IMG/VR virus record: IMGVR_UViG_3300024343_000019
Location: 1-54,109 of that record
Direction: 5' to 3' (one strand)
Source of the DNA: a virus
DNA: 54,109 nt
In this document: one piece after another, positions 9,213 through 47,500 of the stretch
How the letters are laid out: each line of letters opens with the position of its first letter
How positions within the stretch are numbered: the stretch's first letter is position 1
Notes under the pieces: model-generated
What the model was told of the DNA's origin: nothing
Databases searched by the model: none
What the model saw: only the letters and a program-made list of their open reading frames with translations
Translations under genes and position numbers: made by a program

Positions 9213-9538
9213 ACTTTATGCGGGCTGAGATTACACCGTATTATGAGAGCCTTTGGTCATTACCGTTAGCCTTGCGAGCCACGTTCTACCTTTATCCACT
9301 AATATGCCTTTCAGCTATACTAGTATCTCTCAGTGCTGCCTTTTTTAGAGTCTGGCGTTTGACTCGTCGTATAATGCTATTCGTCCCTCAATCTTCCGTT
9401 TGCCTTGCGAGCAGTTCACAGTCGCTAAACCGTTACGTCTTCTTTCCGAACAACTACCTCCACCTTGCGAGTTTCAGTAGACCCAATTCACTTGCGTGTC
9501 AGGTGTTAAGCACCTTTCACATTATACCGGGACAGTCT

Positions 9539-9619
9539 TTCGCTTTTATATCAAAACAGGGATTGAACCTGTGCCGATTCCTTAGAAGGGAATTGCTCTA
9601 CCGCTGAGCTATTTGCGAA
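9539..9619 (-). ncRNA. tRNA-Arg(UCU)-like domain embedded in the large RNA
   Basis: The minus strand folds as a tRNA body. The D-stem is GCTC/GAGC with a GG-containing loop. The anticodon stem is ATTCC/GGAAT with loop CTTCTAA, giving anticodon TCT at 9586-9584. The T-arm is ACAGG-TTCAATC-CCTGT. The acceptor stem is abnormal: only AAA/TTT stacks directly, then a 9-nt bulge (GATATAAAA), then TTCGC/GCGAA. No CCA follows. The domain is enclosed by CTGGGACAG (9642-9634) pairing with CTGTCCCGG (9535-9527). It therefore looks like a structural tRNA mimic within the larger RNA and not a free tRNA gene, although processing cannot be excluded. Confidence 0.75.
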
Positions 9620-10131
9620 CCTACTAAGATGTGCTGTCCCAGTTGCACCATACCTTGTTAGATACAGTATACAACACATCTTCTGTCTTTCGTCTTGCGG
9701 ACTACTCAACCTTACTTCACGACTCCAGGTCCTACCCTTTCACCGTTTGTAATGCTACATTGCCCTTGTTTGCGGACTCGGACTCTGTAACTACCAGTTG
9801 GTTTTTACTGTTCACCGTTTTGGCTATACGCTGTAGAACCGCCAAGTTCCTTATCGCTCACCGACTGGCTCTGCGACTATCCTTTCGGACAGCATATACG
9901 GTTTACCAGTTACCGCCCACCCACAGACGGAAGTTGCTTTCGGTTTTAAGGCCGAGTCAACTTTAACCCTGGCTTGTATAGATGAACCATTGCTGGCGCA
10001 GGTTTATAGGAAGCCCTGCTTTGGGAGTGTTACCACTCTTATTCTAATGACGCTATACCGCCAATCCCTCTAGCACAATGTGCTTTTGATTACATTGTAA
10101 ACAGAAACACATTCGCTTTCGTTATGTTCTT

Positions 10132-14107: not shown

Positions 14108-14311
14108 TTATTCAGCGTCTCCAGGACTATACATATCCTTAAATTGCTCTACTTCTCGCTGATGTTCAGCACGTTTCATTTCACGACTATTGCGCATTTT
14201 ATTAATATGCTTTAGCGTTAAACGTGGGCGGCGAGTGTCATCAATTTTCCAAGTGCCATACTCGTCATCTTCTGCTTTACGTGTTCCGTTATCTACTTCT
14301 TTAAATCTCAT
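14108..14311 (-). CDS. small basic protein between portal and core genes (67 aa)
   Basis: I do not recognise this protein. The start chosen is the ATG at 14311, which overlaps the end of the portal gene by 11 bases; an upstream in-frame start at 14362 would lie deep inside the portal gene. The protein (MRFKEVDNGTRKAEDDEYGT...) is highly charged, with a basic middle (RRPRLTLKHINKMRNSREMK) and no membrane segment. It occupies the position of T4 gene 67 but lacks its acidic character, while the next gene down looks like gp67. A head-assembly role is plausible only from position. Confidence 0.65.
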   Translation of the reverse strand: MRFKEVDNGTRKAEDDEYGTWKIDDTRRPRLTLKHINKMRNSREMKRAEHQREVEQFKDMYSPGDAE

Positions 14312-15971
14312 TTTCTGCTCCCCCTGTGGTGCCGCCAAGTGGTGATTCACCGCCTGCTTCAATATCTAAATCTCCGCCTAGGTCCTCGCCCTCTTCGCCA
14401 GTATCAAATTCTGTTGGTTCAAACCCTTCAACATCACCGGCGCGGACACCTAGCCCACCTAGTTCACCTTTGGCATCAAACCCGTCTGATCCTTCGTGAT
14501 CTCCACTTTCTTCACGCCACATGCGCTCGTTTTCTTTAATCTCATCTTCGTTCAAGCCCAAGTACTTGCTGAATAGGAATCTACGGCTTAGATAACTTAC
14601 GCCTTCTAAGCTACCAAATACACTGGCACGTGCTGCTTCAATTTCAATCTCACGGTACTGACTAAAGCTCTGTGGCTCAGTAAAGTGTAAGTCAAAAAGA
14701 CTACTTGGAATTTCAATACCTTTGTGTTTAAGGAAACGTTTAAATTCTTTATCTAAACTTGGCTGTAGAACTAACTGTAGTCGCTCACAATATTTACTGA
14801 AACGGAATTCCTGAATAAGTGCCGTTCCTACTTTACCGTCTTGATATGTTGCCGTACCATCCTCTGGACCTGTTGGTAGATAGCTACTTGGAATACGTAA
14901 ACCACGCATTAGTTTGTTGTTGAAATACTTTAGGTCGTCAATCTCACCCAAGTTGTCGCCGCCTGGCAACACTTCAACTTTACTACCACGCCCTTCTGCG
15001 GTTTGAGCGAAGAAATAGTCTTCCATAATACTTAATGGGTTGTATGCTGCATCAATAATATTTGTGCCACCGCCTGTTTTATTTGGAATACGTGTCTGGT
15101 GTACTTCGTTCTTAACACGCTCAACAAAACCCATTGCTTTGTGTGCTGGCATGTTACCAACGTCAATGTAGAACACACGGCGCTCTGGCGCACGTTGAAC
15201 ACGATAGATAATAATACTATCTTCCAGTAGTTCCTTTTGCTTGTATACTTTAAAAATGCTGTCTAAGATACTATTGCCAAATGGCCAGTTAGCACTCATA
15301 CCATCTGTTAGTGCAATGTGTACAACGTGTGCTGCGTCAACTGCATACTCAGTATTGTTTGAACTATAGCCGCCCTGATAAACACCTGATTGTGCTGACA
15401 GTGCTGTAGTAAATGACGTTGAACCTGCACCAGCCATGTTGTTTAGCTTTTTAGTATCAGTAGTAACTAAATCTGTTAAATTTAGGTTGATATTTTTTAT
15501 CATATACTGATCAATTTCTTTGCCTTTGCTCTCGTTGACAATGGCTTTGCTCACATCAGCTGGATCAACCCAGATTAGTTTATATGTCTCTGGATCACGA
15601 ATAAACAACTGATCGCCGTATTTGATAGATGAACGGAATACCCCAAACATTCTGCGTTCCCAATCATTAATATTGCACCACTGATTCAATGCTGTAGTGA
15701 TAGCATTTACTTCGCTTTCAGTTGCATCATCCTTGTAATGTATTTCAAAAGGCAGGCGGGTGTCTGGATTTGTTTGTGTGGCAAATTCAGCGATAGTATC
15801 CAGTGCTGCGTTAATCTCACTGTCCATATCCATTTGGTCATACTGTGTATAACGCTCAACACGATTAGGCTGCCCGGAGTAAACCTCAGGCAACCAGCTT
15901 TGCCATCTATTTGCTCTAGCACGAATTCCATTGCTAGGCTCGTATTTTGTAAAATGCTTTTTCCAGCTCAT
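14301..15971 (-). CDS. 20: portal vertex protein gp20
   Basis: This is the dodecameric portal at the tail vertex through which DNA is packaged. The 556 residues carry the T4-like portal landmarks: YDQMDMDSEINAALDTIAEF (about residues 44-63), FRSSIKYGDQLFIRDPE, RAPERRVFYIDVGNMPAHKA, the region around YNPLSIMEDYFFAQTAEGRG, and LRIPSSYLPTGPEDGTATYQ. The C-terminus is acidic and Gly-rich (EGEDLGGDLDIEAGGESP), as in relatives. Length matches T4 gp20 (524 aa). The ribosome-binding site is weak. A late-like element lies about 25 bp upstream, so it probably has its own late transcript in addition to read-through from the tail genes. Confidence 0.96.
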   Translation of the reverse strand: MSWKKHFTKYEPSNGIRARANRWQSWLPEVYSGQPNRVERYTQYDQMDMDSEINAALDTIAEFATQTNPDTRLPFEIHYKDDATESEVNAITTALNQWCNINDWERRMFGVFRSSIKYGDQLFIRDPETYKLIWVDPADVSKAIVNESKGKEIDQYMIKNINLNLTDLVTTDTKKLNNMAGAGSTSFTTALSAQSGVYQGGYSSNNTEYAVDAAHVVHIALTDGMSANWPFGNSILDSIFKVYKQKELLEDSIIIYRVQRAPERRVFYIDVGNMPAHKAMGFVERVKNEVHQTRIPNKTGGGTNIIDAAYNPLSIMEDYFFAQTAEGRGSKVEVLPGGDNLGEIDDLKYFNNKLMRGLRIPSSYLPTGPEDGTATYQDGKVGTALIQEFRFSKYCERLQLVLQPSLDKEFKRFLKHKGIEIPSSLFDLHFTEPQSFSQYREIEIEAARASVFGSLEGVSYLSRRFLFSKYLGLNEDEIKENERMWREESGDHEGSDGFDAKGELGGLGVRAGDVEGFEPTEFDTGEEGEDLGGDLDIEAGGESPLGGTTGGAENEI

Positions 15972-16014: not shown

Positions 16015-18429
16015 TTATGATCTCAGTGGATCATTCAGTCTGCCATAATGCTTGACAACATCTTCCAATTGTCTTAATGTGTTTAAATAGTTGTTTTTAA
16101 TGGCGGCGGCTTCTTCCAATGCAGACTTTAGTCCACTGTTATTTGTGTTTCTACCAGTTGTGCTAGTTGATTCTGGATATTCAAGTCTACTAAGTGTTCT
16201 ATTAACTCTTGGAGTTACATCTACTGAATTACTAATGTTTAGAGTATTTGATTTAGTAGAATCAATATTATTTACTGGAGACATTATCTGCCCCGAATTT
16301 AACGAACCAAGTGCTGCGGTCGCTTGTCCTATTGCTGCTATCATTGGCGCCATATTGAACATGCCCATTGAATCATCGTTAGAGAAAATACGACCCGCTG
16401 TTTGTGGTACAAATAATTCACCCATGCCACCAGGACGATTTTCACCAACAATATAAGGGGTATTAGCGGAAACATTACCACCAGAGAATTGACCTTCAGG
16501 CATATACATATATTGTCCAATATCGGCTAGCTGTTCTGGAAGTCGGTAAACCTTTTGGTTTAAAATAGGATGTATTGCAACTTCAAGAATTGATGTGTCA
16601 TACCCATGATCATCAAGTAGATTTTGATCATATGGAACAGGCTGCATACTATTATATTCTGATCTTATGCCTTGTAAATCTGCGCCCAAGTTGCTGTATG
16701 CTACTACTTGCATCATATTTTCTACTCTACTTGTATAATCAGATTGTGATAAAGGAGTAGCAATAGGCACTGAATGTTCTTCTCTATCTTTAAACCAATC
16801 AACAGCATCAAGCATAACACTAGCTAATGTTTCAGAAACATTTGCAAGATCATCTAGTGGAAACGTAATACGTTCTTGTAGTTTCATAAATGATTCTGTA
16901 ATTTTGTTCATTGCCACTGTTGCTGGTCCTGAAGCTGCAAGGGCGGCTTGTGATTCTCTAATCTTTGCTTCTAGTTCAGATCCAGAAGCATCAATAAGAT
17001 TTCTAAATTGTGTGGATACTTGTAAAGAGCCTGCACTAATAGCCATTATGCTTTCCAAGTACGGGTTGCTTGCGTCTGCTGATAGACGTGCTAGATCAAC
17101 ACCGGTGTCTTGTAAATCTGCGTAAGATTTTAAAATAAAGTTTAGTATATCACCACCAGCTACTTTACCAGTTCGAACGGCTTGATTGATGCCGTCTATG
17201 AAACTACTATCCATAGAATCAAAGGCACCAAGTAAGTCTGGGTTTGTTGCCATTAATACGCCTCTAACATCAAAATCTTCTATATTTTCAGCACTTCTAA
17301 AGGCTTCTCTACTGATAGCGTCCATTAGCTGCTGCCCAGGAGCGCCCATTTCTTCTCCTGCCATGGCAAATTGTGTTACTAGAGATTCAAAGAGATCTGC
17401 TTGTTGTACACTGCCTGATTCTCGCATTATTTTTAGTGCTGCGGCGGTTTCAGGATCACTGATTGATGCCATACGTTTCTGCAGAATTTCATCTCTGCTT
17501 TGTCCAGTTAATGATGCTAACGCTGTTGTTTCTAACATTAGTGTTTTGTAACTGTTTGCTAACGGTTCTTGAGCACCTATAGTATCTCTGTTTAGTCTAC
17601 CAGTTAGACGTGCTATGTTAATATACTCAGCAAATGATCTTGCCATTTGCTCACTACTTAAACCAAAATCACCTATTACGTTACTTGAATCATTTAAATC
17701 GTTAAAGAATTGTAAGAATGTATCAGTACCACTAGAGACACCATGTCCTAGTGCTTGTATACCAGCACCATATTCAGAAACAATTTTACTCATCTGTGTA
17801 TATGAAATACCAGCTTCTATTGATCTCTGATATAAATTATGGTAGGCACGTGATCCTTCAAAGAAAATAGCACCAGAATTAATCATTGTTCGCTGTGCTT
17901 CTTCAAACTGTTCTAATTTTGCTACGTTAAAACCTAAAAGTGCCGCTACTACATCACCACCTAGGTCGGCGGCAGAACTGCTAAGTTTTCCAAATGTTGA
18001 CTTTAAAAACGCTGCGCCACGCTCAGAGCCGCCTACTAATTCACCTATTCCTTTGCCTAATCCACTTGCTGCTGACTTAGATAGATCTAGGAAAGTTGAC
18101 AATGGTTTTTCAGTGTTGTTTAATTTATCTATTAAACCAGCAGTGCTGCTAGCTAAACCTTTAACAAATCGTTCACGGCTTTTTTCTTCCGCTTTAGCAG
18201 TGTCTCTCTGGTTTTTAACAATTCTATCAACCGCGTCTTTAAATGTTTTTTCTGCCGAAGATGTATCGAGATTTATTTTATAAACTTCTTCAACTAGCTT
18301 TTTATCTAAACTATAATTTAGTCCAAGCTGTGCCGCCAGCATCTCCATAGTGCCTTCACTGGCCCATGCTGGAACGGGCACTGTTGTGCCGTCTGGTAGT
18401 GTTATATTATAAACGTCTTTACCTGCCAT
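16015..18429 (-). CDS. tape-measure-like virion protein 3, no hydrolase domain (804 aa)
   Basis: It is a paralogue of the next two genes. The shared block is about residues 175-345: 'QFEEAQRTMINSGAIFFEGS' aligns with the matching '...RTM.N.GL......Y..LR...' segments, then SSEQMARSFAEYINIARLTG and SLTGQSRDEILQKRMASISD. The N-terminus differs (DVYNITLPDGTTVPVPAWAS). Ala/Gly-rich helical stretches (residues 110-170) could insert in membranes, as tape measures do. The C-terminal part has a Gly/Pro segment (TPYIVGENRPGGMGELFVPQ), familiar from phage tape measures, and ends in a helix. Unlike its paralogues it shows no peptidoglycan-cleaving motif. The ATG overlaps the stop of the preceding gene by one base (TAATG). 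A tail-interior location is inferred. Confidence 0.65.
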   Translation of the reverse strand: MAGKDVYNITLPDGTTVPVPAWASEGTMEMLAAQLGLNYSLDKKLVEEVYKINLDTSSAEKTFKDAVDRIVKNQRDTAKAEEKSRERFVKGLASSTAGLIDKLNNTEKPLSTFLDLSKSAASGLGKGIGELVGGSERGAAFLKSTFGKLSSSAADLGGDVVAALLGFNVAKLEQFEEAQRTMINSGAIFFEGSRAYHNLYQRSIEAGISYTQMSKIVSEYGAGIQALGHGVSSGTDTFLQFFNDLNDSSNVIGDFGLSSEQMARSFAEYINIARLTGRLNRDTIGAQEPLANSYKTLMLETTALASLTGQSRDEILQKRMASISDPETAAALKIMRESGSVQQADLFESLVTQFAMAGEEMGAPGQQLMDAISREAFRSAENIEDFDVRGVLMATNPDLLGAFDSMDSSFIDGINQAVRTGKVAGGDILNFILKSYADLQDTGVDLARLSADASNPYLESIMAISAGSLQVSTQFRNLIDASGSELEAKIRESQAALAASGPATVAMNKITESFMKLQERITFPLDDLANVSETLASVMLDAVDWFKDREEHSVPIATPLSQSDYTSRVENMMQVVAYSNLGADLQGIRSEYNSMQPVPYDQNLLDDHGYDTSILEVAIHPILNQKVYRLPEQLADIGQYMYMPEGQFSGGNVSANTPYIVGENRPGGMGELFVPQTAGRIFSNDDSMGMFNMAPMIAAIGQATAALGSLNSGQIMSPVNNIDSTKSNTLNISNSVDVTPRVNRTLSRLEYPESTSTTGRNTNNSGLKSALEEAAAIKNNYLNTLRQLEDVVKHYGRLNDPLRS

Positions 18430-21083
18430 TATCTCGTTAATTCCAGAGTGCTGTTCTGTCTTCTAATTTCTTCAACAAGTTTAAGAGCTTCCTCAACTAT
18501 TGCTGGGTTGGTCACTGTTAATTCTCTTATTACATTATCGATATCTTCCTCAGTATTTATTGTATCAGAATCACCAGTATTTTTTGGAGTACCGTCTGTA
18601 TTGTGTGTAGCACCATATTGTCTATCCCACGTGCTTTGTGCGCTGCGAGGACTACTCCAAGGGCGAGATGGAACAGTTTCTGTTGGAGTTAAAGTAGGAG
18701 TAGTGTTAGATGGAGTAATTGTTTCCGCTGTTACTAGACTTCTACTCGCTGCATAATCTGCACGTGCTGCCTGTAACGCTGTAGCAACTTCTTGAACACT
18801 GTGACTAGCACGGTTTCCGCTGCCGTAGTAACTCATACCTGTTCTTGGATCTGGAGCACTGGCCCATTCCATAGCAAAGTCCAGCATCGCTGCTTCTAGA
18901 TTGTCACTCTCACCTCTGATATATGCTGAAAGATTCCTACGTTTGGTATAGCCATCTTCTGCACCCACTAGAAGAAGTGTGCCAAGTTTGTCTTGATTTT
19001 CAGGAGTAAACTTATCTGTAAGTTTTAATCCACTGTGTGGCCAGATTTCTTGCATTGTTTCAGGTATGATCTGATAACGTCCTACTGCGAATAATCTATT
19101 TGGATTAGCAGCGTCACCAATGCTTTGCAGCATGAATATTTCGGCAAACGTCATATCAGTCAATGATTTGCCATTTCTTATAGTATTCATAGTGCTTCCA
19201 ACAATAGTATTGTTTATTGTTCCGCGGTTAGAAGCCGCGTAACTTCCTTCACCTTTACCAATAAATGCTAGAATACCACCTTCACGCTGTAGCGCCTGTA
19301 TTTCTTCAGCAGTTGAATCGTGTATTTCTAATGGTACAAAACCAGTACCAGTGTAACTATATCCAGATCTACGTGCATAGTCTTCCATAAATGCCTGTGC
19401 TTCAGCAGGAGTCATTCCTTCTATCTGTTCCATAACAGAACGTCTTCTTATACTTTCTTGTGTGGCTGCGCTTCTACTTGTTTCATTTCTCTGTTCAACT
19501 ACTCTTGATATATCAGTTATTTCTTCATCACTCATGCCGGCTAGATAACCAAATAGAGACGTTAGTTTAGAGAAGGCAGTGTTAATATTACCAATACTAG
19601 GCGTCATTGAGTCATGGATCTCCAACAACGCAGTTCTCATGTTATCCATTGCTATAACGGCATCATCAGCGCCGCCTGTTATAGTTTCAGCAATTGTTTC
19701 AATTCCAGCAGTTAGTTCAGCCCCGCTTGCTTTTATGAATGCATCTGGTACCACTTGTGCCATTGCTTGAATTTGCACAGCCCCTTCGTTTTCTGGGGTA
19801 TAAGTTTCCAGTGGCGGAACATTTTGTATTGCAATTATAAGTTTTTGCCAGTCTGTTGTTAACTGGTCAGGGCTTGTATAAGAACCAGTAATACTGGTTG
19901 TAAATATTTCTGAAACCATGTTAGCAATTTCAGGACCAAGAATTTGGAATTGCCTAAATATTTCTGATGAGATATTATCTATAGCAGATTCATTAATATT
20001 AACGTCCATTTGCGCACGAGTTAAACCATCAAGTAGGCCTTTACTGACATCTTCACCTAGCATAGGTAAAAGCATAGATAATTGTCCAAACGAAGTTCTT
20101 GCTCGTTCAGTTGCACCTTCTCCATATGTTTCTGACATATATTGTGCATTTTTATTAAAAGCAATAATGGCATCTGAATCAGACAATGCTGTTCTTCTCA
20201 TATCCAACAAATTGTCTCTCTGTTGTCCAGTTAATTCAGCATAGCGGGTTGCTAACGCCGCGCTTGTCTGAAAGCCTTTGCTTATTCTTAGCTTGGCAGT
20301 CTCATTTAATTCTGTTATCTCATTTAAACTGTTAAGTAATGTTGCTTCTTCAGCAAGTCTAACCATCAACTCCTTGCCGCGATATCCAAAACGTCCTAGA
20401 CTATCATTCTTACTGTAAGATTCTACAAAGTCAGAAAAATTAGTGAATCCACTTACTGAATCATTAGCTAAACTTGATATAGTTTTTCCATAATTTCCCA
20501 ACAATGTCATTGCTTCAGCTTGGCCTAAGCCTATGCCGGCAAAATTATCACGCAGTGTTCTGTATATTGATTGATCAGTGGCAATTAACCCATAGTCAAT
20601 CATTATTCTAGCAGTTTTTTCTTGATCTTTGGCAAAATTTAGCATAATTTTAAGAAGCGTAGCTGACCCCGCAAGACCTAATGCAGCTAAATCTATGCCA
20701 CGTAATGCCCCGCCTAAACCTCTTATTTTTCTTGTGCCATCAGCAGCGGCATCAGTTACATCACGTGCTGACCATGCTATTTCCTCAATTGCACCAGCAA
20801 ATCCTCCAATTGGATCTGCACTGCTTACTAGTTTATCTAAAAGACTGTTGGTTCTGGCTGATAGTTTTTTTGCAGCTATTAAACTTTTATTTTCCTTAAA
20901 TGCTGCTAATACTTCATTTGCAAGTTTATCCGGATTCAGATCTTCTCCTGTTTTTAATTTGGATATAGCTTGTGTTATAAGAATATTACTAGCGCCTTGA
21001 ATTTTAACTGCTTCAATTAAAACAGCGTCCAATGCCCAGGGATATATTTTAAAAATAGTATTAATTTGATTTTCTAAACTCAT
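18429..21083 (-). CDS. tape-measure-like protein 2 with lambda-R-type muramidase domain (884 aa)
   Basis: The N-terminal 330 residues match its two neighbours (helical; KDQEKTARIMIDYGLIATDQ, ELTGQQRDNLLDMRRTALSD). A lysozyme-like domain at about residues 604-775 has the features of the lambda endolysin (lytic transglycosylase) fold: a candidate catalytic Glu612 in GKGEGSY, VGRYQIIPETM (667-677), TPENQDKL, and AMEWASAPDPRTGMSYYG. The C-terminus is Thr/Ser/Pro-rich and then helical. This suggests a virion protein that cuts glycan strands as the tail enters the envelope. Its ATG overlaps the previous stop (ATGA), so all three are coupled. The hydrolase is supported by several motif positions; the tape-measure role is inferred. 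Confidence 0.75.
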   Translation of the reverse strand: MSLENQINTIFKIYPWALDAVLIEAVKIQGASNILITQAISKLKTGEDLNPDKLANEVLAAFKENKSLIAAKKLSARTNSLLDKLVSSADPIGGFAGAIEEIAWSARDVTDAAADGTRKIRGLGGALRGIDLAALGLAGSATLLKIMLNFAKDQEKTARIMIDYGLIATDQSIYRTLRDNFAGIGLGQAEAMTLLGNYGKTISSLANDSVSGFTNFSDFVESYSKNDSLGRFGYRGKELMVRLAEEATLLNSLNEITELNETAKLRISKGFQTSAALATRYAELTGQQRDNLLDMRRTALSDSDAIIAFNKNAQYMSETYGEGATERARTSFGQLSMLLPMLGEDVSKGLLDGLTRAQMDVNINESAIDNISSEIFRQFQILGPEIANMVSEIFTTSITGSYTSPDQLTTDWQKLIIAIQNVPPLETYTPENEGAVQIQAMAQVVPDAFIKASGAELTAGIETIAETITGGADDAVIAMDNMRTALLEIHDSMTPSIGNINTAFSKLTSLFGYLAGMSDEEITDISRVVEQRNETSRSAATQESIRRRSVMEQIEGMTPAEAQAFMEDYARRSGYSYTGTGFVPLEIHDSTAEEIQALQREGGILAFIGKGEGSYAASNRGTINNTIVGSTMNTIRNGKSLTDMTFAEIFMLQSIGDAANPNRLFAVGRYQIIPETMQEIWPHSGLKLTDKFTPENQDKLGTLLLVGAEDGYTKRRNLSAYIRGESDNLEAAMLDFAMEWASAPDPRTGMSYYGSGNRASHSVQEVATALQAARADYAASRSLVTAETITPSNTTPTLTPTETVPSRPWSSPRSAQSTWDRQYGATHNTDGTPKNTGDSDTINTEEDIDNVIRELTVTNPAIVEEALKLVEEIRRQNSTLELTR

Positions 21084-23836
21084 GATACTGCCCCCGCTGT
21101 TATATCATAATTTTGGACAATCATTGCAATAGCAAGCATTCTTGCCGCAGTTATTTCACTGTTATCTAATTCAGCTTGCATGAGCTCGCGTAGTTCAGGT
21201 GTCAAGCTGATATGATCTTCGTCATCCGTTGTGTCTACTTCACTATCATCAATATTTCCTGCGGGACGGTCTATAATATTTGCTCCAAAGCCCAGCGGGG
21301 TAATATCAATTCCAGCATCACTAAATGTTTTTAAAAGATTGTTATCTAGTCCCTGTATTCTATTAAATTCTGACAGTCGGGCGCCAGTCAGTGTTCTAAT
21401 ATTTCCCTGCTCGTCAAAAAATAATTCATCAAGTTGTGTAGAATATTCCATGTGCTGACGGAACGCTGCCATAATCTGATCATCAGTATAAGTTGGTTCT
21501 TCGCCAATTTGATTTATTCTCAGTGTTGTATCATCTAAGGATCGTGTACCTACTTGTGTATTAGCATAAACGTCTGCTAGGAAGCCACCTGTGCCTTCGG
21601 CACCCCACGTTGCCTCAGCACCAAAGCCAACGTGCATAGTTTGTGTTCCCATATATCCTTCACCAGCACCAATACCAGTTGCTCCCAATTGTCTAGCAAT
21701 AGCTGCAAAATTTGAGAATACTGCGTGGCCCTCAGATGTACTAAAATCATAGTTTTGATTTGTCTGGGGATTTACTAAATTCAAATCAGCGGCGCCGCCG
21801 GCGTCATGTCGTGTAGAACCTTTGCGTACAGCGACTCCGTTTAGATAATATGTAGGACTGTCACCACTTGTGTTTGTTTTAGTTCCTGTTGCCGCTTGAT
21901 AGTCAGCCATTGACATTTGCCCGCCACTGGTAACTCTAACATCAACACCTACTTCTGCGGCCGCGGCCTGTAATATATTCATTAGATCTTGGTTAATAGG
22001 ACCTTTTCTTACAGTTGTACCACTTTGTGCTTCAATAACATTACCACCCATACCTTCTGGTGTTGCACGGCGCATTGCTGGTATTTGTCCGGTTGTATAT
22101 GCTCCGCCACTTCCTCCTTGCGCACCAGAAGTTGATAAATCACTTGCTTCTACTGGAGGCACTAGTGCGCCAGTTTCAGCTGATCCGCCTCTACTTAATC
22201 CACGCGGACCATTCCTGCGTGACGGTCCTGATGTAGTTGAAATATAACTGTCTCCGCCAGGTTCGCCAAATCCAAATGTTCCGCTGAATATGTTAGTAAG
22301 CCACTCTGCTATATTTGAAAAATAAGTTATGGCACGTGCAGAGTTTTCATAATTTGGTTCCATCACGTCAATTAATTCTCTGAATGCAATCCTTAGATTG
22401 TCCATTGCGTCAATTGAGGAGTCTGCTGCTTCAGAATAAAAACTAGATGCACGTTGTAATGATTCAAATTCTGTTCTAGTGGCTGTTAAATAATTTTCTG
22501 GTGCAATTTGCGCTCTGGCTTGTAGATCTCTAGCTAATTTCAGTTCAGGCGTGTCTATTTGTGTATCTATTACTGGTGTTTCTTTAACAGTGAATGTAAA
22601 GTCTCTCAGTCTAGCAAATAGTTCACCGCCCTTTAGTGATCCTGTTATACCATCCTGCATCATTGATATAAATTGTGTTCGTGCATCATCACCCAATAGA
22701 ATTAGAGCATTACTTAACTCTCCAGACATATTGTTTAAAAAGTTTGTATCAAAAGGGAAATCATATAACGCACGATTCATTGTATCAGAAACAAGATTGG
22801 CAAAATCATTTCCAAACAGAGATGTTAGCTGTGTTTTTAATTCTTCATTAAATTGGTATACATTATCTTTTGCATTTTCGCCAAAACGTTCTGTCAGCAT
22901 TGCTGACGCTTTGCCCATAGCTAAACGAAAGTCTATATCGTCATTGGCTTCTTTTCTTATATTGTTAACTGAACTACGCTGTACACCCATTAATTCAGCT
23001 ATAGCATATGTGTATTCAGAACTTCTTTTAAATCTTGCCAATAATTTAGACGATGACGACAAATTAACCATGTCTATAGATCCAGCACGAAACATCATTT
23101 CTGCTTCTTCACTCAGTCGTCTCATCAATTCACTATTTGAATATCCGTAATCATTAATAATGCTATCGTTATTGTGTATAGTTCCTGTTAATGCTACTAG
23201 ACTTGATATTGAATCATAAGTGCCAGATCTCATATTTGCATAGAGCGGCATAAACTCCTTGTACAATGTCGTTGTTTCTTCTAAACTTAATCCAATATCA
23301 GCAACCGTGTCTCTCAGCTGAGTATACAATTTTAAATCGCCAACCACCAATCCGTAGTTTATCATACTTCTGACAGTTTGTTCCTGTGCGGTTAAAATTT
23401 TACCGTAGATACCCATAACGCCTGCTACTGTCGCTATGCTACTAGTTGCTGCGTCACCAACCCAACCTAGAGCTTTCCAACCACCTGGCAGGCGTTTTGC
23501 TGCATCCATGACGGGATCAACTGCTTTATCAAGAAAACCCGCCCCCATTTCTATTAAATCTGAAACGCCGCCCAGCGGATCATTATCACGTGATAAAGAT
23601 TCAATAACGGATAATGAAGTTTCTTTAGCCGTCTTTATTCCTTTAAGGTTATCAGTTGTCTTTTTAACCTTTGACAACTCTTTATTTCGTTTGGTGTGGT
23701 TTTTGTTGAGTGTATCTATGGCACGTTTAATTAAATTATTATCTGCTCTGACATGTGAAAGTGCTTGGGACAGAGTTTTTTCTGTGACCCATGGATATTT
23801 TGAGTTAATTTTGCTTAATTCATGTCCAATATCCAC
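21080..23836 (-). CDS. tape-measure-like protein 1 with M15-type peptidase domain (918 aa)
   Basis: It starts at a GTG (23836) with AAGGG about 10 bases upstream; no in-frame ATG lies nearby. Residues 1-330 are the shared helical module (ELSKINSKYPWVTEK, EQTVRSMINYGLVVGDL, ELMGVQRSSVNNIRKEANDD). A Gly/Ser/Arg-rich linker runs from about 520 to 600. Residues about 611-750 form a D-Ala-D-Ala peptidase-like domain with zinc ligands His677 (STRHDAGG), Asp684 (GAADL) and His735 (TMHVGFG), the M15 / hedgehog-type arrangement. It would cleave peptidoglycan peptides during infection. It is the first gene of the coupled trio and is divergent from gp26, with which it shares an intergenic region of about 75 bp. 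Confidence 0.75.
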   Translation of the reverse strand: MDIGHELSKINSKYPWVTEKTLSQALSHVRADNNLIKRAIDTLNKNHTKRNKELSKVKKTTDNLKGIKTAKETSLSVIESLSRDNDPLGGVSDLIEMGAGFLDKAVDPVMDAAKRLPGGWKALGWVGDAATSSIATVAGVMGIYGKILTAQEQTVRSMINYGLVVGDLKLYTQLRDTVADIGLSLEETTTLYKEFMPLYANMRSGTYDSISSLVALTGTIHNNDSIINDYGYSNSELMRRLSEEAEMMFRAGSIDMVNLSSSSKLLARFKRSSEYTYAIAELMGVQRSSVNNIRKEANDDIDFRLAMGKASAMLTERFGENAKDNVYQFNEELKTQLTSLFGNDFANLVSDTMNRALYDFPFDTNFLNNMSGELSNALILLGDDARTQFISMMQDGITGSLKGGELFARLRDFTFTVKETPVIDTQIDTPELKLARDLQARAQIAPENYLTATRTEFESLQRASSFYSEAADSSIDAMDNLRIAFRELIDVMEPNYENSARAITYFSNIAEWLTNIFSGTFGFGEPGGDSYISTTSGPSRRNGPRGLSRGGSAETGALVPPVEASDLSTSGAQGGSGGAYTTGQIPAMRRATPEGMGGNVIEAQSGTTVRKGPINQDLMNILQAAAAEVGVDVRVTSGGQMSMADYQAATGTKTNTSGDSPTYYLNGVAVRKGSTRHDAGGAADLNLVNPQTNQNYDFSTSEGHAVFSNFAAIARQLGATGIGAGEGYMGTQTMHVGFGAEATWGAEGTGGFLADVYANTQVGTRSLDDTTLRINQIGEEPTYTDDQIMAAFRQHMEYSTQLDELFFDEQGNIRTLTGARLSEFNRIQGLDNNLLKTFSDAGIDITPLGFGANIIDRPAGNIDDSEVDTTDDEDHISLTPELRELMQAELDNSEITAARMLAIAMIVQNYDITAGAVS

Positions 23837-23911: not shown

Positions 23912-24742
23912 ATGACAAACCCCTTAGTACAGGCTTATAGAAAGCCTTCGCTATATGTCACACTGCCAAGTGGTGGAAAATATTACGATCCTAAACCAAA
24001 ACTAAGTGTTGATGGAGACTTAGCAATCTACCCAATGACTGCTAGAGATGAACTTATCACAAAAACACCTGACGCACTGTTTAATGGTGAGGCAACTGTT
24101 TCTATTATTCGCAGTTGTTGTCCAGATATCCCAAATCCAGCACAGACACCAGTTAATGATCTTTTGGTTATTTTACTAGGTATTAGACAGGCAACATATG
24201 GAAAAGAAATCAGTGTTGATATCAATTGCCCAGCGTGTAATGAAATGAATATGATGATGGCTGATGCAAACCGTATTTTGGCTTCAGCAAAATCAACAAC
24301 ACTAAGTGATAAGATTAATATGGATAATGGTTTTGTTATTCATGTTAAACCTTATAACTTGGAAGATCGTACCATCTTACAAATCCAACAAATCAAACAG
24401 AAAAAAATGATTGAAGGTTTGGTTCGCGAAGGCGTAAGCGACGAAGATCGTACCAAAATTTTTGGACAAACTTTTGTTGAATTAGCTGAACTAACAGTTG
24501 ACCTTATTGCTAACTCAATATATGCAGTAAAGGCTCCTGAATCTGAAGAGATTACTGATCGTGAAATAATCAAGGAATGGTTGCAGAGTATTACTAAAAA
24601 GGATTACGATCAGATTAAAGATTTGGTTGAGAAACTTTCTGATCCCTCACTTGATACTTCTTTTAATGCATCTTGTCAGCACTGTGGACATAACTGGAAA
24701 ACAGACATTGATCTTGATATAGCAAATTTTTTCGTAGGCTGA
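23912..24742 (+). CDS. 26: gp26-like baseplate hub / tail assembly protein
   Basis: The start is the ATG at 23912 with GGAG nine bases upstream; an in-frame TTG 15 bases earlier is less likely. The 276-aa protein has the gp26-family pattern: LYVTLPSGGKYYDP near the N-terminus, PMTARDELITKTPDALFNGE (about residues 42-61) and IIRSCCPDIPNP. Two CxxC pairs, CPAC (about 106-109) and CQHC (about 255-258), could form a zinc ribbon. In T4 gp26 is needed for hub assembly. Here the gene precedes a gp51-like ORF in the -1 frame and ends on a slippery T-TTT-TTC directly before the stop. By position beside tape-measure-like genes it may act as a tail assembly chaperone of the lambda G/GT kind; that is inferred. 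Confidence 0.85.
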   Translation: MTNPLVQAYRKPSLYVTLPSGGKYYDPKPKLSVDGDLAIYPMTARDELITKTPDALFNGEATVSIIRSCCPDIPNPAQTPVNDLLVILLGIRQATYGKEISVDINCPACNEMNMMMADANRILASAKSTTLSDKINMDNGFVIHVKPYNLEDRTILQIQQIKQKKMIEGLVREGVSDEDRTKIFGQTFVELAELTVDLIANSIYAVKAPESEEITDREIIKEWLQSITKKDYDQIKDLVEKLSDPSLDTSFNASCQHCGHNWKTDIDLDIANFFVG

Positions 24743-24761
24743 TATCCACTAGTCAGCCTAC
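24727..24761 (+). promoter_or_regulatory. probable -1 ribosomal frameshift site at the gp26/gp51 junction
   Basis: In the gp26 frame the sequence is T TTT TTC (24727-24733), a canonical X-XXY-YYZ slippery heptamer two codons before the TGA. It is followed at once by a perfect 9-bp hairpin, GTAGGCTGA (24734-24742) with TCAGCCTAC (24753-24761) and a 10-nt loop, which holds the gp26 stop codon. A -1 slip puts ribosomes exactly into the downstream ORF. The spacing between heptamer and stem is unusually short. Confidence 0.7.
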
Positions 24762-24972
24762 ACAAATCGAAAAAATATTAGAGCGCTACAATAAAGATCA
24801 TGATAATACAGAAAAAAGTTATATAGATCTAATCTTACATAGTGGTGGCGCAATCAGCTATCAGGATGTCATGACTATGCCAGTTCCTGCTATACAGCGA
24901 ATGTTTGAAAGCATTAATAAACGTATAGAAGATCAGAATCAGGCAGTGCAGAAAGCACGTAAGTCAAGATGA
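24733..24972 (+). CDS. 51: gp51-like tail/baseplate assembly ORF, read by frameshift from gp26
   Basis: This ORF is open in the -1 frame relative to gp26 and runs about 80 codons to a TGA at 24970. The translated segment includes TQIEKILERYNKDHDNTEKS and LILHSGGAISYQDVMTMPVP, which matches the small gp51 hub-assembly proteins that sit next to gp26 in aquatic T4-like phages. It has no ATG before its middle (first at about 24859), no GTG/TTG start near its beginning and no ribosome-binding site. This favours synthesis as a gp26-gp51 fusion through the slippery site. The last 9 bases overlap the convergent gene at 24964. The start given is the first codon after the slip. The gp51 assignment is from memory of the family. 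Confidence 0.65.
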   Translation, partial: RRLISTSQPTQIEKILERYNKDHDNTEKSYIDLILHSGGAISYQDVMTMPVPAIQRMFESINKRIEDQNQAVQKARKSR

Positions 24973-25544: not shown

Positions 25545-25624
25545 TGTTTATAAATCTTTAATACTGATCACATATCATATCTAACGTTATAATACTTTAA
25601 TCTTATATTATATTCTTCCCGCTG

Positions 25625-26045
25625 AGTATTCATTCACACTAAGCCCGATACAGGCCAAAGTGTGAATGAAATTTGTAAGTTAGGAAAATTTCCCATGCCT
25701 CGCAAACGCCCACATTACCATAACATAACCTTACTACAGGGAGAGGCGGTTGAGCTGTACCTCCTATTACGATGCGTCTAAACAGCGCAGGACCACCGGA
25801 TGCCATGGTATCAGCATATCCAGTTACCCTCAAGATATTAGTGTCAATAGAGCTTGATCTTTTAAAAACCATTACGACAACAGAAGCAGTGTGCTTAAGG
25901 CGTCCCTGACGTCACCAGGGATAGTCTGTTGAAGCGGTTAACTAGATAAACCATTTGCATACCGTCTCACATCAGAACGGATTCGCGGCACTGATTACTG
26001 GCGTGCCAACCTTATGTCTAGTTTGTAGTAGCCTTTAATAGTATT
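25625..26045. ncRNA. hairpin-rich non-coding stretch, possible second structured RNA
   Basis: This is a gene-free stretch of about 420 bp, visibly more GC-rich than its flanks and dense in inverted repeats. A 12-bp stem TTCATTCACACT/AGTGTGAATGAA closes an inner GCC/GGC pair (about 25629-25671). Others are GCTGT/ACAGC (about 25754-25787), AAGCA-GTG-TGCTT (about 25884-25896), TCCCTG/CAGGGA (25902-25920), and GGCAC/GTGCC (about 25987-26007). I found no convincing promoter or terminator, so the strand is open. A TATAAT-rich segment lies just left (25588-25615). One minus-strand ORF of 77 codons runs through it without resembling any family. It matches no tRNA, group I/II intron core or riboswitch I can recognise. 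Confidence 0.45.
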
Positions 26046-41549: not shown

Positions 41550-44500
41550 ATGTCAGATTTTAAATCAGATAATAACGAAAAAGCGGTAAACAAAACTAGA
41601 GCAGGTCGACGACCAGTAGTAAACATTGATACATCTGAATTCTTACCTAAGACTTTTAGAACTCCGCTAAATCGTAAATGGTTAGACGCTACACTAAATC
41701 GGATGGTTTCAAAAGGAGATCTTGAAGATATTCATGGCTTTGTAGGAAAATATACTGGAGAAGTACTGGACAAATACGACGATGTATATATTAACACTGG
41801 ATACGAAAATCAACTAAGCGCAGCAATTGTCTCTGAATTTAATGACGTTGTGGTAGACCATATATCAGGCAATGATATCCTTAATAATATCAATTACAAT
41901 TTTGAAAACTATTCTCTCAATGGCGCATATAATAGTCAAGCATATGTTTTTGCTCCACCCATCAATATTGATAAGTTCTTAAATTACAGTCAGTATTTCT
42001 GGGCTCCTATATTGCCAATAATTGAAATAATTGATAATAGTGCTCCAGAAATTCTGGATCCTACTGTTGTATACGCTGGCAGACCATTCGCATCATTTAC
42101 AACAACTGACGGTCCAATAACATTACATAATGGTATGATCGTAAAATTTGTTGGTAGCAGATGGCCAGTAGACATTATTAATAATGTATATCTGGTAACC
42201 GGTGTTGGAAAAAATATACGTTTTAAAATTTTAACAACGACAATTTCAGTTACTGATATTTCAGAGACATACGATCTGGAGTTAGAAGTCTATACTAGCG
42301 TAGTACCACATACAGACAAAATATCTGGAGAGTTTTCTGTTAATAATAAAAAGGATTATATAGTTATTAATAATTCTGACGAAATTTCGTCTGCATGGTC
42401 ACGTGCAAACTATTGGGTTCATAGAGAGACATTATCATACATTCTAGAATTGAATAGCTCATTTGATATCAAGTCAGTCTTAAAGACAGAAAACCAAGCT
42501 AAACGCCCAATCATTGAATTTAATCCATTTATAGTTATGATGGACAACGCATATGTTTCTTCTGTAACAAGAGATGAGCCAAAATTAACCCATTACAAGG
42601 GCAAGGTTAATTATCTTCTAGGAGTCAATCATTTGCCAGACTCTGGTTCTCTTGGAGGTGGTAATGCGCAGTATACTACTGTCATTGGAGACACAGTTGA
42701 AATTAATGGTGAATACGTTAAGGTAGACAGTTTAGTCGCATATCAATTGGATTCATATTCAGGTGAATTTGGAATATTCTTAATTAAAAGATCCGGCCAA
42801 GTAGAACTTTATGAAAATCTATCCCCTAACAATACATTTACAGTAATAAACGATTATGCATCTGGTGGCACGTATAACCAGCGAGATCTTTATGTAGATC
42901 AGGATTATCGTTTCCAGATATCTCAAGTAAAACTAGCACCAAATACTGCGCCAATGTTTAAGCTAGCGGACAAAAATAACGTATGGCTAGACGATTTCGA
43001 CAGTTCAACTTTTACAGGCAGTAAGATCTTTTCTTATAAATCCAGTAACAGTTCAATAATTGACAGCGAATTGGGTTTTCCGCTCGCGTATAAAGATGCT
43101 GGTCTAAAAAGTGAAATATTATATGAAAACAATATAATAAACGAGAGACACACTTATCAAGAGGCATCAAGCAACGTTGAAAAAGAAATCAAAGGATACT
43201 ATTTCTTTAAAATAGGAAACAATTTTTATTCATCATATTTCCCTTCAGCATTTTCTTTAGGTGCTAAAGAGCATGTTCAGGTAATTGCAGATTCAGGTTC
43301 AGATGTTGTTATTCCTTACGGTACTGATAATTGGAGCGTTAATAAAGAATACCTTGTTTTTAATTTAAATGGAAAAATTTCAACCAGCGAAATTTTAACA
43401 GAGGGCAGTTATAATAGATCTAGAACTAATCAAACAAACATCACTTTGGGCGGCGGTAAGACATATACATTCCATAATTTACTGCCAGATGAAGAACTAA
43501 AGTTTTGGGATGTAGACACTGGTAATGATATTGAAACAATACCTGGCTACGAAGTTACAGTAGTAAGAGATGGTCCGTACATATATCTCCAGGTACCTGA
43601 ATCATTTATCAGTCTGAACATCCTTTATGGAACTGTAGATATTAACAACAGAGGCATTATAACAGTTGTTCCTAATACTGAAGATTTCTATCACCACCTT
43701 TACGTCAATGGTGTACATTTAGATGTAAGTGCGTATTCAATTAGTTCTAATTCAATAGTTATACCGTCTGCTCAATTAGTCGATGGTAAAAATATTATTG
43801 ATTTAGAATACTATAGTAACAGCAATACAAATACTGGCAATACTGAGCTTCCAGAAATTCATAACCATAATAGTAATAATCTTCCACTCAGAGAATTTAC
43901 TATTAGCGATACGCATGAACACTGGGAAAGTTTAATACGTTTTACACCTGGTTTTACGGGCCAGACATATGGAGAAAACAATTATCATCTATCACTACAA
44001 AATAACGCATATGGTGGTGAAATATTCATGCATGAAGATATTAGTATTATGCATGACTATGCCTTTTCAAGTAATGAATTAAACATTTCAACTGCTATAG
44101 AAAATCAAGCAGCTGATTGGTATTCCTTTAAGAAACGTTTTATAAATCAGGTTAAACGAATTGCTATTAAAAATAACATAGAGTCAGTAAGTAAACTAGT
44201 TGACGATGTGTGCAATAATATTATCAAAGTATCAGATAATAATAATCTTCACGCAGACTCCAATATGTATTTCCCACACAAGAGTCATTATAGAGAATAC
44301 GTATATGTTCCTGGAGATACGTATAGATCCGCAAACGTACACTTCAATATTGACGAACACAAACAAGATCATATTTACATCTATGTTGTCCACAATCGCG
44401 ATTCTGATAATATACCTGTTGAAGAAATGCTTCAATATAATATTGATTATGAGATTAACGGATCAGTAATAAACATTAGTAGTGAGCTGGTATTGAATCC

Positions 44501-47500
44501 TTTCACCAATGGTGAAGATATTAAAATAAAGATATATTATCATGACATGGATGAGAAAAGCTATATTCCAGCCAGCATGACAAAACTAGGACTTTCATAC
44601 CTATATAGACCACGTCTGATGGGAAATAAAATTATCTGTCACGACGGTGAGGAAATAGAAGTGCCTGGGGGTACTGAAATATTTAAAGTTTCTGCAGAGG
44701 AGTTCAATCCTCTATTAGCTGCACTTTATGATTTAGAAACAAAGATATACACTGGTATCAAGAAAACAAGTTATAGAGCCACATATAGCCCATTAAAATA
44801 CTTCTCATCACAACACAGAGGACAATGGTATTCTCGTAATGATGTTGACGGTTATATTAAACGTTATTTTGATCTTTGGTTTAATAAATCAAATTACACT
44901 GATTTAAATGATGCTATTCATGTTTACAGAGATGAAAACGATGCATGGACCTGGAATTATTCAAGCATTGCTCTTGATGAACAAGGGCATCTAAATTCAT
45001 CACTACCTGGGAATTGGCGCGGTGCATATGTGACATTGTTTGGTACATCCACTCCACATTTAACACCATGGCATATGCTTGGATTTAGAAACCAACCTTC
45101 ATGGTGGGGTGAATTCTATAGCTGGACAGATCCAATCAAAAGAGACAGGCTAATCAAGTCACTGAAATATGGCATTGTGAGCCGTCCAGACGAACAAATA
45201 GTACAGGATCTTTATTATGCAAGATATTACTGGGATTTTGATACAAAATGCCCAGTAGACACAAACAGAGATTTAGTAAGTCCTGATTTAATTTTAGGAG
45301 AGCCTGGCGATAGTAAGCTAGATGAATTTGTATTTGGTGATTGGTCGCCAATTGAATTTATCTGGAGAAGTTCTGTTCTTGGACAAGCTGCTCACCTGGA
45401 TGCCGTTATTAAATTGTTACCTGCAAAAGCCTGGACTGATTTCTTTAAAGTTGGCCAGTATATTAGAATGCCAAATTCTGATATGATAATTGACAAAGAA
45501 TCTGGACTCTTTATATCAAATCTTGACATGAGATATCACGACGATTCCGATGGTAAAATGGTGGGAACCGTTATTATTAATAGATCAGACAGCGGATTTC
45601 CATCCGGAACAGAAATATTGTTTGTTGGCGGGACCCCAGACACTTCTGCAACTGCTACGTTAGACATAGACACAGATGGAAAAATAGTAGCCGTTAACTT
45701 AACAGGACGTGGCTATGGATACGATTCTAATCCTGCATATCAGTTTTTGTTTCCTGAAGGATATGTTCCATCCGGCGGCATGTCGCCAACAGCAGAATTA
45801 GAATTTAATATGGTCACATCTTCTAATTGGACTATGGGAATTAACCACCTACAGCAGAATTCGATTAAAAGAGAAAAACTCAGTAACCCAATCCAACTTG
45901 GTAATATTTACCGTGGTTTAGATACAAGACTATTACAGGATATTGCAGGTTTTACAAGAAGTGACCTAATTAAGGTAGAAACAGAGTCTGGCGCAGCTGG
46001 TAAACATGTTCTGTCTAACTCCGATTTTAACATTGTTATGAATGAAAGTTCTCCTAAAGATTTATATATTGCTAGCGAGATTTATATTACTAAAACTGAT
46101 AGTGGTTATAATATTTCTGGTATAAGCCCGACCAAACAACAATTCAAGTTTTTTGAACCAGCACCAATCAGTTCAAATGATTTTGTTCCTGTTACTGTAA
46201 ACAATAGCTTTGTTGTTAAAAAGTACAAAACATTTAGTAGCAGTGTCTCGATAATCGAGTTCAATTCAAAACTTGCCAGAATTCAGGATGTTTATAATTT
46301 TATTAGAGGATATTATTCATATTTGGAAAGTGTTGGGTATGTCTTTGTAGATTCATATGAGGCAAAAGCGATTGACTTTGCAACATGGGCATCAACGACA
46401 GATATAAATGAAAAATATACAGTAGCCATTGGAACCAGCGTTTCTTTTGTGGCAACAGGCGGCGTTGCCGCGGAATATGGAAGTATGCCAGGCGGAGTTA
46501 ATAGTATACTCGCTTATAACGAAAATGGCGAATTAGTAGAAATTAACTACAGTGATTTATGTATCACAAGAACAGACAATTCTATACAGATACACCCAAG
46601 AGGTTATCCTGTAGATCTAAGTGAACCAAGCGAATCAATTGTCACATATACGTACCAGTCATCTACAAGTACACAATACAGTGATATTCAAGACATTAGA
46701 TCAGTTTCAAGTAAAAATGCGGACAAAATTGCATGTGTTGCAACCGCTGTGATTGAATATGATCATGCAATAATCTTTAAAAATACCACACAGTTTAATG
46801 AAATAATTTACGATGATGTAGTAAATCACAGACAACAGCGTTTAAAAATTTCTGGGCAGCGTACCAGAGATTGGGCTGGCGTAAAATCAGCGCCAGGATA
46901 TTTAATTAAAAACAATACTATTATACAAAACTATGACACTGCGGTTTCTGACATTAGTGACATTTATAATCTTAACGTCACAAAATTTAATAAAGATTAT
47001 GAGGCAGCTGAATTATTAACAGTGGGAAATACACTTAAAGACTGGATTAATAATTTAAACTTGGCATCAAATACATCTTCAAAACTATATCAAGGATTGA
47101 TTAGAAGAAAAGGTTCTAATGGTGTCCTAGGTATTATGAATATATCAGACTTAATCCACGGCGGCAGAGGGCGTATAAACGTCAATGAAGAATGGATGTT
47201 TAAACACAGTAGTTATGGAGATACAGTACGTGAAAATGCTACTGAGATAGAATTAAACACAGGTATGTTTGTTAATGATCCAGTGGTTATTAATTTCGAG
47301 GATCCTAGTATTGTCTTTATAAACAGACAATCAGATCAGGAATTCAGAGTACGATCACAGGATGAAGTAAAACTATCCTTGCCAGTAGCAGGAAATCTTC
47401 AGAAAGGCGATGCTGACTATACAGCATTTAAAGTTGAAGAATTACCAAACCTATACAATAGTGATTCAGTTTATGCCAATATTCCTACATGGAGCCCAAG

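Follow-up and report, generated by a model that had tools for sequence, protein, structure and literature searches.

Tail assembly chaperones are characteristically produced as a short and a long protein with a common N-terminal part, the long one arising through a -1 shift of the reading frame. In phage lambda, gpG is the partner of the tape measure protein, and gpGT contacts the tail tube protein through its T part (PMC5009743). A 2010 review lists the T4 proteins gp26 and gp51 as chaperones of hub assembly, and the membership of gp26 in the hub itself has been both argued and disputed (PMC3004832). Tail assembly chaperone (TAC) genes of T4-like phages were identified by Vladimirov et al. 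2022 (Virology 566:9-15) according to PMC10885494, where some T4-like phages are said to possess one short and one long TAC gene and no frameshift; a further citing paper credits the same study with poly-T slippery sites in the TAC-N genes of T4-like phages (PMC12846349). Our literature search found no direct description of a gp26/gp51 frameshift, and Vladimirov et al. 2022 is known to us through the papers that cite it. The interpretation of T4 gp26 and gp51 as tail chaperones is already published for T4-like phages in that 2022 work; what is added here is that the arrangement extends to jumbo phages, that the slippery heptamer has been lost where the two forms have been split into separate genes, and that the candidate stimulators are lineage-specific.

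The DNA analysed here (the window) is a stretch of 54,109 nucleotides, positions 1 to 54,109 of the IMG/VR virus record IMGVR_UViG_3300024343_000019. It contains a single gene that, judging from its sequence and that of its relatives, very probably gives rise to two tail assembly chaperones through -1 ribosomal frameshifting. The elements of this locus are as follows:

23912-24742, + strand: gp26-like gene (putative TAC-N, the short form, 276 aa; PF12322, phrog_150)
24727-24733, + strand: slippery heptamer T-TTT-TTC, in frame with gp26 and conserved in phase in every single-copy relative examined
24740-24742, + strand: zero-frame stop codon TGA of the gp26-like gene
24727-24972, + strand: -1-frame extension (putative TAC-C, homologue of the T4 gp51 C-terminus)
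24734-24761, + strand: hairpin directly 3' of the heptamer (9 bp and a G-U pair, 8-nt loop), a presumed stimulator

The gp26-like gene begins at 23912 with an ATG that has GGAG some 10 nt ahead of it, and its 276-aa product, which has CxxC pairs, belongs to the T4 gp26/gp51 family. It matches PF12322 ('T4_baseplate') with an E-value of 3.3e-20 and 73.2 bits (curated cut-off 24.5) and phrog_150 ('baseplate hub') with an E-value of 2.3e-23, and its relatives reach 63.7-257.9 bits against PF12322, above the same cut-off. The 3' end of the gene reads GCA AAT TTT TTC GTA GGC TGA, which places the heptamer two codons ahead of the stop in a phase that fits tandem -1 slippage. No stop interrupts the -1 frame between the heptamer and a TGA at 24970-24972 (81 codons, counting from the FF), and the predicted fusion protein has 353 aa, with ...ANFF joined to RRLISTSQP.... 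There is no ATG, GTG or TTG among the first 25 codons of this -1 ORF, its first ATG being codon 49, and most members of the window's clade likewise have no start codon in that interval. Substitutions past the gp26 stop fall mostly at third positions of the -1 frame (e.g. 7/10/22 and 12/13/30), and the ORF is therefore read as protein. An earlier note on this DNA, made from the letters alone, had described the in-frame heptamer, an immediate 9-bp hairpin containing the gp26 stop and a -1 ORF devoid of a start codon, and had assigned the two pieces to gp26 and gp51; each of these points was recovered in our analysis, the assignment by the profile matches above and by the alignment to the gp51 C-terminus given below. 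Searches with the -1 ORF of the window also returned matches that we set aside: tblastn gave solely hits with E-values of 0.3-0.8 in T5-like phages, judged to be due to chance, and weak matches to DUF7179 and phrog_3880 (E-values about 4e-4 to 5e-4) lie under the Pfam cut-off. The gp51 family phrog_634 was not listed among the matches of this ORF at E<=1.

The 5' arm of the hairpin, GTAGGCTGA (24734-24742), which holds the gp26 stop, pairs with TCAGCCTAC (24753-24761) through 9 Watson-Crick pairs and one G-U. Folding of a 71-nt stretch gave -19.3 kcal/mol (z -5.8), an energy equalled by none of 200 shuffles. The hairpin follows the heptamer with a spacer of 0 nt, which is shorter than usual, so that the stem would be partly melted while the heptamer is being decoded. 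Across the window's clade (6 distinct sequences) a core of seven pairs is kept, six of them invariant and one compensated by a change from C-G to U-A that is silent in either arm when read in the -1 frame. Slid controls gave no doubly changed pairs, and as 17 of 500 shuffles match the observed count of such pairs, the support from covariation is moderate. This hairpin is not shared by more distant relatives, the other clades having different hairpins or none. The spacing is odd; the hairpin would probably raise the slip rate in the window's clade. A reading of the hairpin as a transcription terminator was rejected because the T-run lies 5' of the stem and not 3' of it.

The junction was aligned in relatives, a check that the earlier note had proposed, and both the heptamer and the -1 ORF recur in them. 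The jumbo-phage-like group comprises 47 loci, namely the window, IMG/VR contigs and named jumbo phages, with identities down to about 24%. The named phages are Pseudomonas Cassandra, Agrobacterium Atu_ph07, Sinorhizobium Phosso, Pectobacterium CBB, Klebsiella RaK2, Vibrio 2.275, Salicola SCTP-2, Xanthomonas XaC1 and XacN1, Erwinia Hallingskeid, Salmonella Munch, E. coli 121Q and Stenotrophomonas CM1; queries with Vibrio, Atu_ph07 and PA5oct-like proteins gained few further loci. An in-phase X-XXY-YYZ heptamer is present in 47/47 (TTTTTTC in 45, TTTTTTT in 2), and it is followed in every case by a -1 reading of 71-82 residues, counted from the FF. The distance from the heptamer to the zero-frame stop varies from 1 to 11 codons, and hence the element that has been kept is the heptamer and not the stop. 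Further, the codon ahead of the Phe-Phe may encode N, S, D, H, Y, A or R, yet its third base is invariably T; the chance product of this, computed from the codon usage of each locus, is about 10^-9.6 over 19 lineages treated as independent, which is only roughly true at such divergence.

The wider family was surveyed by whole-record searches with phrog_150 and phrog_634, followed by inspection of the junctions. The Kyanoviridae-type (cyanophage) loci from IMG/VR have TTTTTTC in 80/80, and the same gene with the same -1 join is seen in P-SSM2, S-PM2, HTVC008M, phiM12, KVP40 and Delftia phiW-14, as T-TTT-TTT in HTVC008M and phiM12 and as T-TTT-TTC in the other four. In these six phages phrog_634 ('baseplate hub assembly catalyst', gp51) corresponds to the -1 piece itself. 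The heptamer, found in every single-gene-copy relative examined, is not due to chance. Together, the conserved in-phase heptamer ahead of the zero-frame stop and the overlapping -1 ORF make up the pattern by which -1 frameshifting is recognized from sequence. In 47 of 50 distinct junctions, the Kyanoviridae set (loci L063-L142) in addition has a Shine-Dalgarno (SD)-like (A/G/T)GAGG upstream of the heptamer at a distance of exactly 10 nt; the Glu codon at this point is GAG in 47/50 as against 24% GAG in the same contigs, although the 50 junctions are related and do not amount to 50 independent events. As a separate observation on annotation, many public jumbo-phage genomes (L025, L026, L028, L029, L167-L171 and similar) have the -1 extension annotated as an independent hypothetical protein or leave it unannotated.

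The T4 proteins indicate how this gene relates to the classical hub factors. Both T4 gp26 (208 aa; E-value 8.8e-64) and T4 gp51 (249 aa; 3.9e-52) match PF12322, and they recognize each other in blastp with an E-value of 3e-6; by these comparisons they are paralogues of one family. The C-terminal end of T4 gp26, ...GLKEFFELL, falls at the expected place of the heptamer, while T4 gp51 continues for about 50 residues beyond it, a stretch that can be aligned with the -1 pieces of other phages. Profile alignment of the jumbo-group -1 ORFs to the gp51 C-termini of T4 and RB43 together with the cyanophage -1 pieces gave an hhalign probability of 88% (p 2.8e-6) at an identical position, on which basis the -1 ORF of the window is homologous to the C-terminus of T4 gp51. 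From the paralogy and the alignment of the gp51 extension it follows that T4 apparently holds fixed short and long copies of a gene that is frameshifted elsewhere. Where T4-type phages have genes 26 and 51 as separate units, gp51 is an in-frame fusion, and most of the T4-type gp26 genes keep the Phe-Phe as GA(A/G) TTC TTT and have lost the slippery site. The retention of the residues alongside the loss of the heptamer in the split-gene types serves as a natural control and argues that it is the heptamer, and not the Phe-Phe, that is selected in single-gene phages. KVP40, which like T4 belongs to the Straboviridae, has retained the single frameshift gene, and RB43 has two genes.

A mechanism can be proposed from these features. 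Most ribosomes would terminate at the TGA at 24740-24742 and release the short gp26-like form (TAC-N). A minority would slip back by one base on T-TTT-TTC, both tRNA-Phe re-pairing on U-UUU-UUU, and would read through the -1 ORF to yield the 353-aa TAC-NC, the equivalent of T4 gp51. If lambda gpG and gpGT are taken as a model, the shared N-terminal part may coat or hold the tape measure protein, and the helical C-terminal part of the rarer long form may recruit the tail tube or the hub.

The same junction might instead be explained by a separate small gene downstream, started on its own or by termination-reinitiation at the gp26 stop, with the T-run reflecting merely a conserved Phe-Phe. In this respect the expectation of the earlier note that the downstream ORF lacks a start of its own holds within the initial 25 codons for the window and for most members of its clade, and does not extend to all relatives: a -1-frame ATG lies just past the heptamer in Kyanoviridae (5 codons into the -1 piece and beside the stop, in 80/80), phiM12, KVP40, phiW-14 and some jumbo phages, with TAATG or TGATG overlaps in KVP40, phiM12 and phiW-14, and therefore the C-terminal part could be initiated independently in those phages. 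The frequent annotation of the -1 piece as a separate hypothetical protein in GenBank points in the same direction. We nevertheless regard this explanation as improbable, given the window clade without starts, the T at the third base of a variable preceding codon, which a conserved Phe-Phe leaves unexplained, and the T4-type phages that keep the FF and lose the slippery codons. The change of frame might also be brought about by RNA polymerase, as a single extra U inserted at the run of six T would lead into the same frame. A run of six U is short for efficient transcriptional slippage in bacteria, and the run has not lengthened in most lineages; moreover, its codon phase is fixed, and the nearby SD-like and hairpin elements suit slippage by the ribosome, all of which makes a polymerase origin very improbable. 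Frameshifting by the ribosome remains the strongly favoured explanation.

The nature of the two proteins was examined separately. The AlphaFold2 model of the window gp26 is good, with a mean pLDDT of 85.7, and the HK97 tail assembly chaperone 2ob9 ranks first among the chains re-aligned to it with VIA-align (Z 6.6, less than one Z unit from unrelated chains), with 101 of 107 residues aligned at 4.9 A and 10% identity. Although 2ob9 is the chain that would have been named beforehand, the match is not decisive by itself. Foldseek against the PDB gave no match for either the gp26 or the gp51 model, no credible hit came from profile searches of the PDB sequences with the alignments of gp26 and of gp51, and no tail chaperone was listed among the structural matches of the gp51 model, which does not argue against a TAC fold. 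It may be that the frameshift is real and that its products belong to the hub or assist its assembly and have no relation to tail chaperones, a view that agrees with the missing sequence match to solved chaperones and with the argued, if disputed, place of T4 gp26 in the hub (PMC3004832). We consider it unlikely, since a short and a long predicted protein that share their N-terminal part and are linked through a -1 shift typify the chaperones, the published TAC assignment for T4-like phages (as cited in PMC10885494 and PMC12846349) points the same way, and 2ob9 is the top-ranked structural match. The chaperone analogy drawn by the earlier note is supported by this layout, and by analogy we infer that the window pair represents TAC-N and TAC-NC.

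The adjacent structural genes of the window are as follows:

21080-23836, - strand: divergent neighbour, 910-918 aa, tape-measure candidate, paralogue of 18429-21083
18429-21083, - strand: second tape-measure candidate, 884 aa, with a C-terminal transglycosylase-like region (phrog_1200, SLT)
16015-18429, - strand: third paralogue, 804 aa (blastp to the 884-aa ORF, E-value 7.5e-13)
14301-15971: portal (phrog_213)

These three tandem paralogues (800-920 aa, 16015-23836) sit between the portal gene and gp26. The products of 21080-23836 and 18429-21083 are 27% identical over 515 aa (E-value 1.6e-45), and the 884-aa ORF matches the endolysin family phrog_1200 (E-value 1.8e-12) and, weakly, SLT. In most jumbo relatives this place is occupied by one long structural gene, encoded on the opposite strand, as is the case in RaK2 and Phosso; no significant similarity was seen between the window's 910-aa neighbour and the long genes beside gp26 in these two phages. 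T4 genes 26 and 51 are likewise not directly upstream of gene 29. The earlier note placed the junction next to tape-measure genes: the large structural genes on the opposite strand are indeed there, and their identity as tape-measure genes is unproven because none of the three matches a tape-measure family. That they are tape-measure genes, possibly multiplied, is plausible, and they are good candidates. Elsewhere, the window has a GOLLD RNA (RF02032) at 9222-9682 on the - strand (192.8 bits against a gathering score of 150) with a tRNA-Arg(tct) nested in it at 9548-9618, a strong hairpin with an 11-bp arm (TCATTCACACT/AGTGTGAATGA) at 25625-25675 in a gene-poor stretch (fold z -3.7 for 25600-25700), and an unusually long ORF of 3512 codons at 41550-52088 on the + strand.

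On balance we lean towards a scenario in which the genes of T4-like and jumbo contractile phages go back to a single ancient -1 frameshift gene, its stimulators being acquired in a lineage-specific manner, with Tevenvirinae and RB43 having later exchanged the shift for duplicated genes 26 (short) and 51 (long), both copies of which lost the slippery site. If true, this would amount to a natural experiment in the escape from recoding. The comparison shows that proteins long described as T4 baseplate hub factors correspond to a single, very probably frameshifted gene in cyanophages, pelagiphages and many jumbo phages; in these genomes the long form tends to be overlooked or to carry the label of a stray hypothetical protein, and corrected gene calls are suggested for dozens of public jumbo-phage records. 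The split pair of T4 beside the unsplit gene of KVP40 makes the ratio of short to long form, and the need to fix it, directly testable.

Among known systems, E. coli dnaX resembles the family in combining a slippery heptamer with an SD stimulator at the same spacing of about 10 nt, as in Kyanoviridae, and/or a downstream hairpin, as in the window's clade; it differs in its heptamer, and the candidate gp26 stimulators sit in separate lineages. HK97 2ob9 is the top VIA-align match, whereas the window gp26 is more than twice as long and the Z-score is tied with those of unrelated chains. Lambda gpG/gpGT and P2 gpE/E+E' are tail chaperones made by -1 frameshifting; we know of no sequence similarity between them and the window gp26, which is a 276-aa protein with CxxC pairs whose large structural neighbours are divergent and not downstream. 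T4-like gp26/gp51 is a close counterpart, of the same family (PF12322, phrog_150), with the same pairing of a short and a long protein and a homologous C-terminal extension; T4 has two paralogous genes without the heptamer, whereas the window has one gene with a predicted -1 frameshift and a clade-specific hairpin.
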